From NCBI GenBank assembly GCA_934518555.1, contig CAKSXW010000033.1, positions 1 through 20,623 of the forward strand: 20,623 nucleotides of DNA. The letters run 5' to 3'. The position numbers and the translations under genes are program-made. The stretch comes from an uncultured Faecalibacterium sp. Lineage in GTDB: Bacteria > Bacillota > Clostridia > Oscillospirales > Ruminococcaceae. A model generated the notes under the pieces. It ran no database searches. It was not told the origin of the DNA and worked only from the letters and a program-made list of their open reading frames with translations. Below are positions 7,242 through 16,392 of the stretch, piece after piece (position 1 is the stretch's first letter; every line of letters starts with the position of its first letter).

Positions 7242-7271
7242 TTGACACATTTTGCGCTTCTATGATAAAAT
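7242..7271 (+). promoter_or_regulatory. Promoter of the pyrC-pyrF-pyrK-pyrD operon
   Basis: TTGACA (7242-7247), 18-bp spacer and TAAAAT (7266-7271), with TG one base before the -10. Transcription would start near 7278, leaving a leader of about 210 nt before pyrC. Confidence 0.75.
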
Positions 7272-7310
7272 ATCAGGAAGAATATGCGAATGAAAAAAGG
7301 AGACGACACC

Positions 7311-7400
7311 ATGCGGAGCGGTATGATGTGCAACAAGCTGCAGAATCGGTTTGCGTCCGGCTTTGCCGTGGCTTCGTTGTTTCCTTTTTTTGTGAAGTGA
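7311..7400 (+). CDS. Putative pyr operon leader peptide (PyrL-like), 29 residues
   Basis: A 30-codon ORF lies in the long leader of the pyr operon. Its ATG has AAAGGAG (7296-7302) about 8 nt upstream, so it should be translated well. It ends with Leu-Phe-Pro-Phe-Phe-Val-Lys encoded within a run of ten U and two C (7380-7391), and its stop (7398-7400) touches the base of the terminator hairpin at 7402. The E. coli pyrBI leader peptide has the same design: U-rich Phe codons close before an attenuator. An alternative in-frame start at 7284 is possible but sits near the transcript's end. Expression is inferred; the peptide itself is probably not functional. Confidence 0.6.
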   Translation: MRSGMMCNKLQNRFASGFAVASLFPFFVK

Positions 7401-7432
7401 GCTTTTCCCTTTGCGGGGAAAAGTTTTTTTTT
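7400..7432 (+). terminator. Leader attenuator of the pyr operon
   Basis: CTTTTCCC (7402-7409) pairs perfectly with GGGAAAAG (7416-7423) around a 6-nt loop and is followed by nine U (7424-7432), a textbook intrinsic terminator located inside the leader, 55 nt before pyrC. Pairing can extend into the leader ORF stop codon. A ribosome standing at that stop would cover the left arm and prevent termination. Confidence 0.8.
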
Positions 7433-7455
7433 GCCCCTTTGTGGGGCTTAAGCCC
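7433..7455 (+). other. Second leader hairpin before pyrC
   Basis: GCCCC-TTTGT-GGGGC (7433-7447) can fold, or alternatively GGGCTTAAGCCC (7444-7455) pairs with itself. They follow the attenuator and share bases, so are mutually exclusive. There is no U-tract, so this is not a terminator; a role in message stability or ribosome access is possible. I found no PyrR-binding loop here. Confidence 0.4.
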
Positions 7456-7487
7456 ACAGAAACCACCCGAAACAGGAGGACACCGCA

Positions 7488-8678
7488 ATGCTGTTGGTAA
7501 ACGCTGTAAACACCGAGGGACGCCCGCTGGAGATCTACACCAAGGATGGCCGGATCGCTGCGGTGGGCCAGGACCTGAGCGCACTGGCCGGGGAGAACGA
7601 GACGGTCATCGACGCCGGAGGCCTGACGGTGCTGCCCGCTTTTGTGGACCTGCACTGCCACTGGCGCACCCCGGGCTTTGAGTACAAGGAGGACATTGAG
7701 ACCGGCAGCCGTGCTGCTGCTGCTGGTGGCTACACCTTTGTAAACCTGATGCCCAACACCAAGCCCGTTTGCTCCACAGCTGCCCAGGCCATGATGGTGG
7801 AGCAGAAGGCTGCCCAGGTGGGCCTGTGCGATGTGAACCAGACCGTGTCCATCACCGAAAACTTTGACGGCGTGAGCATCGACCACCTGAAGACCCTGCC
7901 TGCCAGCGTAAAGTTCATTACCGAGGACGGCCACGGGGTCCAGGACAACGCCACCATGGCCCGGGCATTTGCCATCTGCACCCAGAAGGACATCACCGTC
8001 ATGAGCCATGCAGAGGATATGGAGATCAGCCCCTGGGATTACCGCCTGGCAGAGGACATTGAGACGGTACGCAACTGCTGGCTCAGCGAGTATTACCAGA
8101 CCAAGCTGCACATGTGCCATGTGTCCACCCGGGGAGCCCTGGAGGCCATCCAGATGGCCAAGCTCCGGGGGGCTCCGGTGACCTGCGAGGTGACCCCCCA
8201 CCACCTGTGGTTCACCAACGACACCTGCGATTACCGGGTGAACCCTCCCATCCGCACTGCCGATGACGTGCAGGCCCTGGTGGAGGGCATCCGCACCGGC
8301 ATCGTGGACGCCATTGCCACGGACCACGCTCCCCACTCGGAGGAGGACAAGCTGAAGGGTATGGCTGGCATGGTAGGCAGCGAGACCGCCTTTGGGGTCT
8401 GCTACACCAAGCTCTGCAAGCAGGAGGGCCTGCCCCTGGAGGTGCTGGTGCACCTGATGAGCACCCGTCCGGCAGAGATCCTGGGCCTGGCCAAGGGCCA
8501 GCTGGAGCCGGGCTACGACGCCGACTTTGTGCTGGTGGACCTGGACACCCCCTACACCGTGGATAAGGACGCCCTGCACTCCAAGAGCCACAACACTCCC
8601 TTTGATGGGGCCCAGCTCTACGGCAAGGTGTTTGCCACCATCAAGGCCGGGGAGCTGACCTATCAGGCTCAGGAGTAA
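7488..8678 (+). CDS. pyrC: Dihydroorotase
   Basis: It cyclises carbamoyl aspartate to dihydroorotate, step three of pyrimidine synthesis. The 396-residue amidohydrolase shows the metal motif HCHWRTPG (H56, H58, substrate-binding R60), ITEDG with D147 where some dihydroorotases carry a carbamylated lysine, H174 in SHAED, H211 and the late DHAPHS motif with D279. This fits the longer dihydroorotase class found with pyrF/pyrK/pyrD in Firmicutes. AGGAGG lies about 9 nt before the ATG. It is the first structural gene after the leader attenuator, a place more often taken by pyrB. Confidence 0.95.
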   Translation: MLLVNAVNTEGRPLEIYTKDGRIAAVGQDLSALAGENETVIDAGGLTVLPAFVDLHCHWRTPGFEYKEDIETGSRAAAAGGYTFVNLMPNTKPVCSTAAQAMMVEQKAAQVGLCDVNQTVSITENFDGVSIDHLKTLPASVKFITEDGHGVQDNATMARAFAICTQKDITVMSHAEDMEISPWDYRLAEDIETVRNCWLSEYYQTKLHMCHVSTRGALEAIQMAKLRGAPVTCEVTPHHLWFTNDTCDYRVNPPIRTADDVQALVEGIRTGIVDAIATDHAPHSEEDKLKGMAGMVGSETAFGVCYTKLCKQEGLPLEVLVHLMSTRPAEILGLAKGQLEPGYDADFVLVDLDTPYTVDKDALHSKSHNTPFDGAQLYGKVFATIKAGELTYQAQE

Positions 8679-8731
8679 GATCATAGTTACAACTCATTTT
8701 CTATAAATACGACTTACAGGAGGACACCCAA

Positions 8732-9598
8732 ATGACGAACATGGACAAACTGTACGAAGCTGTTGAGGCCCGGGGCCCGGTCTGCGTGGGTCTGGACACC
8801 GACTTCAGCTACCTGCCCGCCGATTTTGTGGACAGCACCCTGACCAAGGGCGAGAACATCCTGCGCTTCAACCAGAAGCTCATTGATGCCACCAAGGCTG
8901 TGGCTGGCTGCTACAAGGTGCAGATCGCCTACTACGAGTCTCTGGGCATGGAGGGCATGAAGGCCTATGCCGACACCCTGAAGGCTGTGCGGGAGGCTGG
9001 TGTGCCGGTGATCGCCGACATCAAGCGTGGCGATATTGCCAAGACCGCTGAGATGTACGCCATGGGCCACTTTACCGGGGATTTTGAGTCCGACTTCGTG
9101 ACCCTGGCCCCCTACATGGGCCTGGACTCCATCAGCCCCTACCTGCCCTACGCTGAAAAGCAGGGCAAGGGCATGTTCGTGCTCTGCCGTACCTCCAACG
9201 GCGGTGCAAAGGACTTTGAGTATGAGAAGCTGGCCGACGGCCGCCACGTCTACGACCTGGTGGGCGACAAGCTGAACGCCCTGGGCAAGGACTACATGGG
9301 CCAGCACGGCTACTCCTCCATCGGCCTGGTCATCGGCGGCACCCACATCGAGGAGGCCACCGAGATCCGTGCCAAGTACCAGGACAGCTTCTTTCTGATC
9401 CCCGGCTACGGTGCCCAGGGCGGCAAGGCCGAGGACATTGCCCAGTACCTGACCAAGGGCAACGGCGGTGTGGTGAACTCCAGCCGCGGCATCCTGCTGG
9501 CTTACAAAAAGCAGCCGGGCGTTGCCTTTGACGAGGCCGCTTACAACGAGTGTGTGAACATGAAGGAGGCCATTGCTCATGCGTGCAGCCTGCTGTGA
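8732..9598 (+). CDS. pyrF: Orotidine 5'-phosphate decarboxylase
   Basis: It converts OMP to UMP, the last step of the pathway. The 288-residue protein belongs to the longer OMP decarboxylase group (type 2). The catalytic Asp-Lys-Asp array is in ADIKRGDIAKTA (D96, K98, D101), the phosphate-binding parts are PGYGAQGG (224-231) and SSRG with R252. The start has AGGAGG (8718-8723) 8 nt upstream. A 53-bp gap separates it from pyrC without promoter or terminator signals. Its 3' end overlaps pyrK by 20 bp, so the two are translationally linked. Confidence 0.95.
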   Translation: MTNMDKLYEAVEARGPVCVGLDTDFSYLPADFVDSTLTKGENILRFNQKLIDATKAVAGCYKVQIAYYESLGMEGMKAYADTLKAVREAGVPVIADIKRGDIAKTAEMYAMGHFTGDFESDFVTLAPYMGLDSISPYLPYAEKQGKGMFVLCRTSNGGAKDFEYEKLADGRHVYDLVGDKLNALGKDYMGQHGYSSIGLVIGGTHIEEATEIRAKYQDSFFLIPGYGAQGGKAEDIAQYLTKGNGGVVNSSRGILLAYKKQPGVAFDEAAYNECVNMKEAIAHACSLL

Positions 9599-10352
9599 AG
9601 CCACCGTCCTGCGCAATGAGGTCATTGCCCCGGACATCCGCCTGCTGACCGTGGTGTGGCCCGACCGGGACCACGCACCCCACGCAGGCCAGTTCTTTAC
9701 CCTGCGCGCATGGGGCGCAGACGAAGCCCCCTTCCTGTCCCGGCCCATCAGCGTGCACCGCTGGAACCCGGACAGCAGCACCATCGAGTTTCTGTATCAG
9801 GTGGTGGGCGAGGGCACTGAAAAGATCGCGCAGCTCAAAATGAAGGATACCTTCCAGCTCACCGGCCCCATGGGCAACGGCTTTGACGTGCCGGATATCC
9901 TGAGCAAGTACAAAAAGATCGCTGTGGTGGGCGGCGGCATCGGCACTGCGCCCATGTTCCAGCTCACCCGCGAGCTGGCAGCGGCAGGCGTGAAGCCGGA
10001 TGTGTTCTTCGGCTTCCGGGATGCCCCCTACTGCATGGAGGAGTACCGCGAGATCGCAAACCTCGTCAAGGTGTCCACCGACACCGGCGCGGTGGGCTTC
10101 CACGGCTTTGTCACCCAGCTGTACGACCCCGCCGACTACGACGTGGTGCTGGTGTGCGGCCCCACGGTCATGATGAAGAACGCTGCCCGCCTGTGTGCCG
10201 AGAAGGGCACCCCCTGCTTTGTGAGCATGGAAAAGAAGATGGCCTGCGGCATTGGTGCCTGCCTTGGCTGCACCTGCGAGACCAAGGGCGGCGAGGGCAA
10301 GAGCGTGTGCAAGAACGGCCCGGTATTTGATGCAACGGAGGTGTTCTTCTGA
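9579..10352 (+). CDS. pyrK: Dihydroorotate dehydrogenase B, electron-transfer subunit
   Basis: PyrK carries FAD and a 2Fe-2S cluster and passes electrons from PyrD to NAD+. The 257-residue product shows the flavin motif RPISV (55-59), the nucleotide loop VGGGIGTAP (117-125), and the cluster cysteines C223, C228, C231 and C244 in the pattern C-x4-C-x2-C-x12-C. The ATG at 9579 is chosen over a TTG at 9573 because AGGAGG (9564-9569), inside the end of pyrF, is then 9 nt away instead of 3. It overlaps pyrF by 20 bp and shares one base with pyrD (TGATG), consistent with coupled synthesis of the two subunits of one complex. Confidence 0.95.
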   Translation: MRAACCEATVLRNEVIAPDIRLLTVVWPDRDHAPHAGQFFTLRAWGADEAPFLSRPISVHRWNPDSSTIEFLYQVVGEGTEKIAQLKMKDTFQLTGPMGNGFDVPDILSKYKKIAVVGGGIGTAPMFQLTRELAAAGVKPDVFFGFRDAPYCMEEYREIANLVKVSTDTGAVGFHGFVTQLYDPADYDVVLVCGPTVMMKNAARLCAEKGTPCFVSMEKKMACGIGACLGCTCETKGGEGKSVCKNGPVFDATEVFF

Positions 10353-11278
10353 TGGCTGACCTGAAAACCAACCTGCTGGGCTTTGTGATGAACAGCCCGG
10401 TCATCGGCGCATCCGGCACCGTGGGCTACGGTGTGGAGTATGAGGAGCTGGCAGACTTTTCCAAGATCGGCGGCATCTCCGGCAAGGGCCTGACCCTGTA
10501 CGGCCAGTACGGCAACAAGGGCGAGCGGCTGTGGGAGACCCCCTCGGGCCTCATCAACAGCATCGGCCTCCAGAACCCCGGCGTCCAGCACTTTATCGAC
10601 GTGGAGCTGCCGGAAATGCTGGAGCTGAAGCAGAAGTACGGCACCCTGGCCATTGCAAACCTTGGCGGCCACAGCGAGGAAGAGTATGTGGAGGGGGCTG
10701 CCCTCCTCAGCGAAAGCGCTGTGGACATGGTGGAGCTGAACATCTCCTGCCCCAATGTCAAGGTAGGCGGCATGGCCTACGGCGTCAAGGCAGAGGCTGC
10801 CGGTGAGGTGGTGCGGATGGTACGGGCTGCCTGCAAAAAGCCCCTGATGGTAAAGCTGAGCCCCCAGGCCGAGAACATCCCGGAGATGTGCAAGGCCGTG
10901 GAGGCTGCCGGTGCCGACGCCATCAGCCTCACCAACACCTTCCAGGCCTGCGCCATTGATCTGGAAAAACGCCGCCCGGTGTTCAACAACATCTTTGCCG
11001 GCCTGTCCGGCCCGGCGGTGCGGCCCATTGCCCTGCGGATGGTATGGCAGGCTGTGGGGGCCGTGAACATCCCGGTGGTGGGCCTGGGGGGCATTGCCAC
11101 CGGCCGGGACGCTCTGGAGTTCATTATGGCCGGTGCCACGGCGGTGCAGGTGGGCGCAGCAAATTTTGCGAACCCCCGTGCCATGGAGACCATTGCCGAC
11201 GAGATGGCTGCCTGGATGGACAAAAACGGCGTAAAGACCCTGGACGAGATCCGTGGCTGCGCCCGTCATGCAGAATAA
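10352..11278 (+). CDS. pyrD: Dihydroorotate dehydrogenase B, catalytic subunit
   Basis: The FMN enzyme oxidises dihydroorotate to orotate. The 308-residue product has the class 1 catalytic cysteine in NISCPN (C133), typical of class 1A/1B enzymes rather than the membrane class 2 form, and the FMN phosphate site GLGGIATGRDALEFIMAGA. Adjacent pyrK assigns it to class 1B. GGAGG (10337-10341) lies 10 nt before the ATG. It is the last gene of the first pyr unit; no clear terminator follows before the pyrE promoter, so read-through into pyrE is likely. Confidence 0.95.
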   Translation: MADLKTNLLGFVMNSPVIGASGTVGYGVEYEELADFSKIGGISGKGLTLYGQYGNKGERLWETPSGLINSIGLQNPGVQHFIDVELPEMLELKQKYGTLAIANLGGHSEEEYVEGAALLSESAVDMVELNISCPNVKVGGMAYGVKAEAAGEVVRMVRAACKKPLMVKLSPQAENIPEMCKAVEAAGADAISLTNTFQACAIDLEKRRPVFNNIFAGLSGPAVRPIALRMVWQAVGAVNIPVVGLGGIATGRDALEFIMAGATAVQVGAANFANPRAMETIADEMAAWMDKNGVKTLDEIRGCARHAE

Positions 11279-11292
11279 AACCTGCAAATATC

Positions 11293-11340
11293 CGTTTATG
11301 ACTTGCGTTTATGCACATAAAATGAAAGATGATGCATAAA
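11293..11340. repeat. Four copies of TTTATG/CATAAA upstream of the pyrE promoter, candidate operator
   Basis: TTTATG occurs at 11295-11300 and 11308-11313, and its inverse CATAAA at 11316-11321 and 11335-11340. The inner pair forms TTTATG-CA-CATAAA; TTTATGCA (11308) and TGCATAAA (11333) form a longer-spaced inverted repeat. The cluster ends one base before the -35, where an activator or repressor would bind. A partly matching direct repeat, TGCAAATA, flanks it at 11283 and 11343. Confidence 0.5.
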
Positions 11341-11341
11341 T

Positions 11342-11370
11342 TTGCAAATACCGTAAAAGCGTGGTACAAT
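11342..11370 (+). promoter_or_regulatory. Promoter of pyrE-carA-carB
   Basis: TTGCAA (11342-11347), 17-bp spacer and TACAAT (11365-11370), preceded by TGG. Transcription would start near 11377, giving a leader of about 40 nt. This allows the second half of the pathway to be expressed apart from the attenuated pyrCFKD unit. Confidence 0.8.
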
Positions 11371-11417
11371 ACCACCCAAAGAGATATACACCACTTAAAA
11401 AGAGAGGGAAAAGTACA

Positions 11418-12011
11418 ATGAGTGAAGCACTTGAGATCCTGAAGAGCTGTGACGCATTCCTGGAGGGCCATTTCCTGCTGTCCTCTGGCCGCCATTCCAG
11501 CGCCTACTGCCAGATGGCCTACCTGCAGCAGTACCCGGACCGCTGCGCCGAGGCCCTGAAGGAAGTGGCTGAGAAGATCAAGGAGATGGACGTGGACGTT
11601 ATCGTGGGACCTGCCATGGGAGGCATCGTGTACGCCTATGAGCTGGCCCGTCAGACCGGCAAGCGTGCCATCTTTACCGAGCGTGTGGACAACGTGATGA
11701 CCCTGAAGCGCTTTGCCATCCATCCGGGCGAGAAGTGCCTCATTGCAGAGGACGTGGTGACCACCGGCATCTCCTCCCTGGAGACCAAGCGTGTCATTGA
11801 GGAGCACGGCGGCATCTGTGTGGGCATCACCTGCGTGGTGGACCGCACCAAGGCTGAGGCACCCTCTCCCATCCCCATCGTGGCCAGCGCCCTGAAGCTG
11901 GACCTGCCCAACTACGCACCGGAAGAGTGCCCCATCTGCAAGGAGGGCAAGTTGCCCCTGGTGCACCTGGGCAGCCGCAAGATGAAGCAGGAAGCAAAGC
12001 AGACCCTGTAA
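11418..12011 (+). CDS. pyrE: Orotate phosphoribosyltransferase
   Basis: It links orotate to PRPP to make OMP, the substrate of PyrF. The 197-residue protein has the PRPP-binding motif CLIAEDVVTTGIS (107-119), a GPAMGGI loop (64-70) for pyrophosphate, and the flexible-loop basic segment near residues 82-98. It ends with a short extension containing CPICKEG. The start ATG at 11418 (MSEALEIL) has GAGAGGG upstream; an in-frame ATG-type start at 11361 lies inside the promoter and is discarded. carA follows after 21 bp. Confidence 0.94.
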   Translation: MSEALEILKSCDAFLEGHFLLSSGRHSSAYCQMAYLQQYPDRCAEALKEVAEKIKEMDVDVIVGPAMGGIVYAYELARQTGKRAIFTERVDNVMTLKRFAIHPGEKCLIAEDVVTTGISSLETKRVIEEHGGICVGITCVVDRTKAEAPSPIPIVASALKLDLPNYAPEECPICKEGKLPLVHLGSRKMKQEAKQTL

Positions 12012-12032
12012 TGTGTTGAAATGAGGAAAACT

Positions 12033-13139
12033 ATGAACGCATATCTTCTTTTGGCAAACGGCATGGTCTTTACCGGCCAGTCGGTGGGTGCCCAGGGCGT
12101 GACCGTGGGCGAGGTGGTGTTCGCTACCGGCATGGTGGGCTTTGAGGAGACCTTGACCGACCCCAGCTACTACGGCCAGATCATCACCCAGACCTACCCC
12201 CTCATCGGCAACTACGGCATGAACAAGGACGACATGGAATCTGACCGCATCTGGGCCAAGGGCTACATCGTCCGGGAGGCCTGCACCACCCCTTCCAACT
12301 GGCGCTGCGAGGAGACCCTGGACAGCTTTTTGAAAAAGAACAACACCATCGGCATTGAGGGCATCGACACCCGGCACCTGACCCGGATCATCCGGGAGAG
12401 CGGTGTCATGAACGGTGCCATCCTCACCACCTTTGACCCTGCTGACCCGGCCAACCAGGCCCAGACCGAGGCCCTGCTGGCCCAGATCCGGGCCTACGCC
12501 GTCACCGACGCCGTCAAGAACGTGACCTGCGCCGCCCCGGAGGTGTTCAACCCGGAGGGCCAGACCCACATCGTGCTGATGCACTACGGCTGCAAGCGCA
12601 ACATCGTCCGTTGCCTGGTCAAGCGTGGCTGCAAGGTCACCGTGATGCCTGCCTTTACCACGGCAGAGCAGATCAAGGCCCTGGCTCCCGACGGCATCAT
12701 GCTGTCCAACGGCCCCGGCGACCCTGCCGAGCCGGTGGAGGTCATCGAGAACCTGAAGCAGATCTTTGAGCTGGGCATCCCCACCTTTGGCATCTGCCTG
12801 GGCCACCAGCTGTCTGCTCTGGCTGCCGGTGCCAAGACCATGAAGCTGAAGTACGGCCACCGTGGTGCCAACCAGCCTGTCACCGACTTTGAGTCCGGCC
12901 GCACCTACATCACCAGCCAGAACCACGGCTACGCTGTGGTGGGCGAGGAACTGCCTGCGGATATGGGCCAGGTGGCCCAGGTGAACGCCAACGACGGCAC
13001 CTGCGAGGGCATCAAGTATAACAAATGGAACTGCTTTACCGTGCAGTTCCACCCGGAAGCAAACGGTGGCCCCAAGGACACCGAGTTCCTGTTCGACCGC
13101 TTCCTGAACAACGTCAAAGCAGCAAAGGAGGCACGCTGA
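12033..13139 (+). CDS. carA: Carbamoyl phosphate synthase, small (glutaminase) subunit
   Basis: It hydrolyses glutamine and channels ammonia to CarB. The 368-residue product has the N-terminal CPSase small-chain domain (about 1-145) and a class I glutamine amidotransferase domain with the nucleophile Cys255 in GICLGHQ, oxyanion-hole loop SNGPGDP (225-231) and the HPE triad end at 340-342. The ATG at 12033 is preferred because GAGG lies 6 nt upstream; the in-frame ATG at 12021 would place this site inside the gene. It ends 1 bp before carB. Confidence 0.95.
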   Translation: MNAYLLLANGMVFTGQSVGAQGVTVGEVVFATGMVGFEETLTDPSYYGQIITQTYPLIGNYGMNKDDMESDRIWAKGYIVREACTTPSNWRCEETLDSFLKKNNTIGIEGIDTRHLTRIIRESGVMNGAILTTFDPADPANQAQTEALLAQIRAYAVTDAVKNVTCAAPEVFNPEGQTHIVLMHYGCKRNIVRCLVKRGCKVTVMPAFTTAEQIKALAPDGIMLSNGPGDPAEPVEVIENLKQIFELGIPTFGICLGHQLSALAAGAKTMKLKYGHRGANQPVTDFESGRTYITSQNHGYAVVGEELPADMGQVAQVNANDGTCEGIKYNKWNCFTVQFHPEANGGPKDTEFLFDRFLNNVKAAKEAR

Positions 13140-13140
13140 A

Positions 13141-16392
<3,252 letters not shown>

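Follow-up and report, generated by a model that had tools for sequence, protein, structure and literature searches.

A conserved, likely PyrL-like leader attenuator ahead of the pyrC operon in Faecalibacterium and its relatives

The pyrimidine operon of an uncultured Faecalibacterium sp. is preceded by a leader that likely works in the manner of the E. coli pyrL attenuator, and this putative attenuator is a conserved device rather than an accident of one genome. The best explanation for its layout, and one we consider fairly probable, is a translation-coupled UTP attenuator of the PyrL type with a kinetic gate at the Shine-Dalgarno (SD) sequence of its leader ORF. Such a nucleotide-sensing switch, as the leader likely represents, was unexpected in the group to which Faecalibacterium belongs. 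The leader lies in a stretch of 20,623 nucleotides (contig CAKSXW010000033.1, positions 1–20,623, assembly GCA_934518555.1), referred to below as the window. The parts of the leader, their near-fixed spacing and conservation, the SD complementarity, and the absence of pyrR from relatives were all read in the sequences.

The first-pass annotation of this DNA had described a 29-codon ORF with a U-run, whose stop codon adjoins a terminator hairpin with nine U, and had proposed a UTP-sensing switch; the described layout can be read directly in the sequence (Table 1). The terminator hairpin has eight perfect pairs, with the TGA of the leader ORF at its foot. In most leaders of relatives, the TTGACA box is likewise situated 17–18 nt ahead of the -10 box. 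Downstream of the leader, the operon has the order pyrC-pyrF-pyrK-pyrD-pyrE-carA-carB (7488–16392). Pfam assignments cover the first six genes, pyrC and pyrE at the superfamily level only, and the last gene we take to be carB. The upstream neighbor, a cysE-like hexapeptide transferase gene, has the opposite orientation, and hence there is no upstream gene for the leader terminator to serve. Positions 7433–7447, immediately 3' of the T-tract, form another short hairpin, GCCCC-TTTGT-GGGGC; similar GCCC...GGGC pairs also occur 3' of the terminator in four relatives (L001, L003, L007, L019).

Table 1. Parts of the pyrC leader in the window
Feature	Position	Strand	Basis
Sigma-70-type promoter, TTGACA-18-TAAAAT	7242..7271	+	11/12 consensus matches
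RNA start, predicted	near 7278	+	expected from promoter position
SD-masking helix, 5' strand, containing the SD	7290..7307 (7292-7307 in the minimum-energy fold)	+	centroid fold; comparative tests
SD of the leader ORF, AAGGAG	7297..7302	+	sequence
Leader ORF, 29 sense codons MRSGMMCNKLQNRFASGFAVASLFPFFVK, ATG 7311, stop TGA 7398-7400	7311..7400	+	sequence; counterpart ORFs in 62 leaders
SD-masking helix, 3' strand (anti-SD)	7376..7393	+	fold
U-run, 10 T in 12 nt, proposed UTP-sensitive pausing stretch	7380..7391	+	sequence; U-richness conserved
Intrinsic terminator hairpin, CTTTTCCC ... GGGAAAAG, arms 7402-7409 / 7416-7423	7402..7423	+	sequence; similar in upstream regions of 62 relatives
Terminator U-tract, T9	7424..7432	+	sequence; 7-10 T in 62 relatives
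pyrC (dihydroorotase), ATG 7488, first gene of the controlled operon	7488..8678	+	superfamily-level Pfam

Conservation of the leader layout

A contig scan with PyrC yielded 64 loci, of which 36 belong to Faecalibacterium, Gemmiger, Fournierella, Anaerofilum, and one Oscillospiraceae MAG. This set was extended by a genus search (31/31 genomes matched) and a family sample (288/297 matched, many weakly), and the pooled set comprises 79 distinct regions upstream of pyrC. A terminator of similar sequence is retained in 62 of these regions. Sixteen of the 17 regions lacking it were traced further upstream, where pyrB precedes pyrC, and in 12 of the 16 a terminator was found before pyrB, indicating that the leader there can precede that gene. 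No terminator was found before pyrB in L138 (cut by the contig end), L140, and L141, and L145 has unrelated ones only; the seventeenth region, L147, is cut by the contig end.

All 62 terminator-bearing pyrC leaders contain an ORF preceded by an SD match of 4–9 bases. The ORFs considered were those ending from -30 to +40 relative to the opening C of the hairpin, and the ORF with the best SD overall is identical in 61 of the 62 leaders. Its stop codon is situated at 0 or -1 of the opening C in 58/62 leaders, the exceptions being L077, L130, L132, and L139. The ORFs are 21–33 codons long and end in TGA, TAA, or TAG (50, 7, and 3 cases, respectively; n=60). The distance from the stop to the end of the T-tract is 29–33 nt in 57/60 leaders, which would be approximately the room required for the leading edge of a ribosome and the polymerase; by this geometry, a ribosome completing the ORF could cover the terminator.

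The leader peptides are unrelated between clades, as expected if it is the act of translation that matters, and the coding constraint is weak (pN/pS 0.47–0.89, the lowest of the three frames in 4/6 clusters). What is conserved is the place where the reading frame ends and not its peptide product. By a fixed rule demanding an SD and an ORF of 14–50 codons ending at the terminator, the layout was recovered in 62/78 related pyrC upstream regions, compared to 60/310 controls with a shuffled pre-terminator part.

Among the 11 pyrB-type leaders examined, the stop occupies the same base as in the pyrC leaders in five (L022, L024, L026, L040, L143), lies inside the hairpin in L134–L137 and beyond it in L144, and could not be assigned in L131. 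In Faecalibacterium itself, pyrB matches occur in 31/31 genomes, and inspection by eye of the 330 nt preceding the best pyrB match at each of 12 loci, with weaker second copies left out, revealed no second leader. At these loci (L149–L160), pyrB is found at another site, close behind another reading frame whose C-terminus presumably resembles a regulator with a UTRA domain.

When applied class-wide, to 80 pyrB loci out of 127 identified across 291 genomes, the same rule selected three upstream regions (L207, L220, L231). As these three passed a loose rule and L220 alone is leader-like, the device is not a general feature of the class. L220 lies outside the main set and has a 29-codon ORF ending in FFLLL just ahead of a terminator, possibly an independent case. 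The predicted 5' region preceding the ORF is 53–76 nt long in L023, L027, L093, L117, L118, L121, L124, and L130 and 22–48 nt in the others; in L093, an additional GC-rich hairpin was noted by eye ahead of the SD.

The U-rich ORF end and its pairing with the Shine-Dalgarno sequence

The first half of the leader ORFs has a T fraction of 0.26 and the second half one of 0.40; the second half is the richer in 52/60 leaders. Near the ORF end, the most T-rich 12 nt contain on average 8.1 T, compared to 4.2 for pyrC windows of 60 nt (p = 4e-5, 22 clusters), and in 19/22 clusters this stretch exceeds every 60-nt window of the respective pyrC. The U-run is not strict, as at least 8 T in 12 nt were found in 41/60 leaders and 16/22 clusters; a group of leaders (L011–L014, L016, L017) has GTTCCCC in its place, complementary to their SD GGGGAAC. 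Phenylalanine constitutes 14% of leader residues (22 clusters), with TTT and TTC codons in the proportion 58:22, compared to 82:100 in pyrC (p = 5e-5).

In the window, the segment containing the SD is predicted to pair with the U-run, forming 16 pairs in the minimum-energy fold and 18 in the centroid (whole-leader z -3.2). The corresponding regions of relatives pair using other letters, e.g., GGGGAACAAA/UUUGUUCCCC in L011, and the helix exceeds 20 pairs in L006 and L121. RNAalifold applied to a MAFFT alignment of 57/62 leaders yielded no SD helix and no useful consensus. The two arms of the helix shift against each other from clade to clade, and for this reason partner swaps and codon shuffles took the place of a consensus fold. 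When partners were swapped between 22 clusters, the own duplex averaged -24.0 kcal/mol and the swapped one -19.2 kcal/mol (p = 4e-5); L029, L107, and L098 failed in this comparison and L132 was weak. The cost of opening the SD increases from 2.5 kcal/mol before the distal ORF is present to 7.2 kcal/mol after, the codon-shuffled value being 4.5. It exceeds the codon-shuffle null in 21/22 clusters (p = 2e-5) and in 20/22 in a separate run, in which L012, L027, L029, L124, and L130 fell below the shuffled mean. The SD of pyrC, used as a control, gave no effect (3.3 before, 3.5 after, null 3.3; p = 0.59).

In the minimum-energy folds, half or more of the SD is paired in 20/22 clusters, and in the ensemble the probability of pairing between the SD and the distal ORF exceeds 0.5 in 18/22. 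The exceptions are clusters 15 and 18 (L117, L107), where the partner of the SD lies earlier in the ORF, cluster 7, which is split, and cluster 17, mostly unpaired at the SD. In the Anaerofilum pyrB leaders L022, L024, L026, and L040, the SD is likewise masked by an earlier ORF segment. With these exceptions, the predicted complementarity between SD and anti-SD exceeds chance and persists through sequence change. The first-pass interpretation thus stands in part: the ORF, the stop-to-hairpin position, the U-richness, and the U-tail are conserved in the relatives whose alignment had been proposed as a check, and pyrR is absent, but the pairing of the U-run with the SD of the same ORF had been missed.

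The maintenance of this pairing across divergent relatives suggests that the U-run may be kept for pairing, besides or instead of pausing. Were it kept only as the SD complement, the leader would be a translation-gated attenuator that responds to ribosome supply or to the general capacity for translation and not to UTP. The survival of complementarity at the lower U-richness of L011 and the masking by an earlier segment in Anaerofilum are consistent with such a gate. We consider it unlikely, given that U-richness is far above the level of the genes themselves in 19/22 clusters, that TTT is preferred to TTC, that the controlled genes are pyrimidine genes, and that the E. coli pyrL attenuator responds to UTP. 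It is by coupling that the pyrL leader controls pyrBI, as stated in an excerpt of one report (PMC5021804).

A constitutive weak terminator, with the ORF and the SD pairing arising from a purine-rich SD in pyrimidine-rich surroundings, is a very unlikely alternative to the UTP attenuator. Any purine-rich SD can pair with U/C-rich RNA, and 60 of the 310 shuffled controls do retain an ORF at the terminator; however, the partner-swap and codon-shuffle controls, which keep composition, were exceeded, and the oppositely oriented neighbor is in no need of a terminator.

PyrR and amino-acid signals

PyrR-controlled pyr leaders of Firmicutes bring about attenuation before pyr genes. The leader described here resembles them in this respect, and relatives from the same family carry PyrR; it differs in having a leader ORF, in showing no significant PyrR-binding RNA, and in the absence of pyrR from relatives. 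No pyrR above the cut-off was found in the 12 genomes of relatives or in the 31 genomes of the genus, and each of the 12 contains weak hits, of 30.5 bits or less against a cut-off of 138, to other phosphoribosyltransferases. In the family sample, PyrR occurs in 120/297 genomes, comprising 0/46 genomes with this type of PyrC (sharing 52% identity or more with the PyrC of L028) and 120/251 others (Fisher p = 5e-12, with genomes counted without kinship correction). The leader itself was not seen in three of the 46 genomes (G210, G153, G205). The initial claim that no pyrR is seen holds for 31/31 genomes of the genus and 46/46 of the PyrC type, all of them relatives.

The accompanying claim, that no PyrR loop is present, holds for the window leader at the Rfam threshold: under permissive settings, RF00515 gave 18.6 bits (threshold 54, E = 5.2). 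At threshold, RF00515 is also absent from short stretches around pyrR in ten PyrR-bearing relatives; as the model goes unseen even near real pyrR genes, the Rfam negative is weak in this family. A PyrR-like protein or a ligand-binding RNA element, with the ORF incidental, would fit the position of the leader and its terminator, which resemble those of PyrR-controlled leaders, and the weak RF00515 match. The lack of pyrR in both genome sets and the conservation of the stop codon through codon change make this reading very unlikely. The least probable is a pheL-type attenuator sensing charged Phe-tRNA, to which the Phe content of the leader peptides would point, since pyrimidine genes lie downstream, the Phe codons by eye are variably placed and form no long runs, the TTT bias indicates selection at the nucleotide level, and a competing antiterminator hairpin is absent from the window fold. 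The bare terminator, the PyrR element, and Phe-tRNA attenuation were all set aside on the evidence against each.

Proposed mechanism and relation to known leaders

For the UTP attenuator, we infer that the leader ORF is translated, that the polymerase pauses at its U-rich end, that UTP is the signal, and that the SD helix acts as a kinetic gate. UTP would be the most economical signal, given a U-rich stretch ahead of genes for UTP synthesis and an E. coli counterpart that responds to UTP. At ample UTP, the default state, the polymerase would cross the U-rich ORF end fast, and the U-run, on exiting it, would pair with the SD of its own ORF and exclude ribosomes; the terminator would fold, leaving pyrC-carB untranscribed. 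At low UTP, the polymerase would slow in the U-rich stretch with the anti-SD and the terminator not yet emerged, and a ribosome could load, follow the polymerase, and undo any SD helix. When this ribosome reached the stop at the hairpin foot, its leading edge would cover the 5' arm while the polymerase cleared the U-tract, and the operon would be read. The switch would thus be a two-step race, in which ribosome loading has to come ahead of the emergence of the U-run, the time available for it being longer at low UTP.

The pyrBI operon of E. coli is preceded by a leader with a short ORF, a U-rich stretch, and an intrinsic terminator, and we know of no regulatory protein involved in its attenuation. 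It shares with the window leader the short ORF, the U-richness late in the ORF, the intrinsic terminator, and the predicted SD pairing. In silico, the pyrL SD CGGGAGGA pairs with a segment of the U-tract, UCUUCCCG (L148; z -4.2), and the cost of opening it increases from 0.6 to 12.7 kcal/mol once the tract is present, with a shuffled mean of 7.1 and none of 60 shuffles reaching 12.7. Among 13 further gammaproteobacterial leaders, hand-chosen from 30, 11 exceed their own shuffled mean (L177 barely) and two do not (L178, L196); in the gammaproteobacterial leader L199, the distal part brought no gain. We tentatively raise the possibility that the UTP-sensing U-run of PyrL-type attenuators, including that of E. 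coli, is also the anti-SD of the leader, an overlooked second part by which it would both time the polymerase and, once out, close ribosome entry. With such a gate, coupled attenuation could function in clostridia even where the polymerase normally runs ahead of the ribosome. If the gate is real, the classical pyrBI model would gain a step that is testable in E. coli K-12.

A U-rich late ORF ahead of the terminator, characteristic of the PyrL type, was found here. The terminator inside the ORF was not: in E. coli, it lies within a 44-codon ORF that stops past it, whereas in the window, as in 58/62 leaders, the stop stands at the hairpin foot. The operons also differ, i.e., pyrBI and pyrC...carB, respectively. 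The attenuator is thus likely PyrL-like in its working, and it was not filed as a strict member of the type because the stop position differs and the UTP response is a predicted one. The trpL leader of E. coli also has its ribosome binding site paired with a distal segment, with Trp-tRNA as the sensor; self-limited leader translation would be common to both, the masking segment here being the proposed UTP-sensing run. In bacilli, histidine leader peptides before hisS paralogues have been proposed in silico to act in attenuation (excerpt of PMC2965389). These too are leader-peptide attenuators of Firmicutes, but they have runs of His codons and an amino-acid signal; the excerpted text does not mention pyr leaders alongside them. 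For pyrL itself, a sequence-dependent pause that is not lengthened by NusA was observed in vitro ~24 nt upstream of the previously studied one (excerpt of PMC9291695).

Among the literature matches listed, which did not include the older pyrBI papers, and in the excerpts consulted, neither a leader of this kind in Faecalibacterium or its relatives nor SD masking in pyrL is described. A 2026 review, in its excerpted part, assigns PyrR to Gram-positives and mechanisms acting through premature termination or at the start site more to Gram-negatives (PMC13328217). In the clade of gut Clostridia described here, PyrR is absent and PyrL-like leaders are present. As transcription and translation in B. 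subtilis are held to be mostly uncoupled (excerpt of PMC7858274), a leader that needs a ribosome close behind the polymerase would offer a direct test case of coupling in Firmicutes.

The pyrBI RNA of E. coli we take to start with AAUUU, unlike the predicted RNA start of the window, which has no similar sequence. UTP-dependent reiterative transcription has been reported for pyrBI (excerpt of PMC6245113); such slippage at the start was set aside for the window, where no U-run occurs at the predicted +1. An A/G-UUU sequence resembling the pyrBI start was observed at the predicted RNA start in 10/35 leader groups, namely the L021, L028, L029, L035, and L103 clusters, L134–L137 (counted singly though alike), and L144; in L024, L026, and L040, AAAUUUA occurs one base further on, and these were left uncounted. 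L144, situated before pyrB, combines an AAUUUG-like start with an ORF of 43 codons that spans the terminator and, like the one of E. coli pyrL, has its stop codon on the far side.
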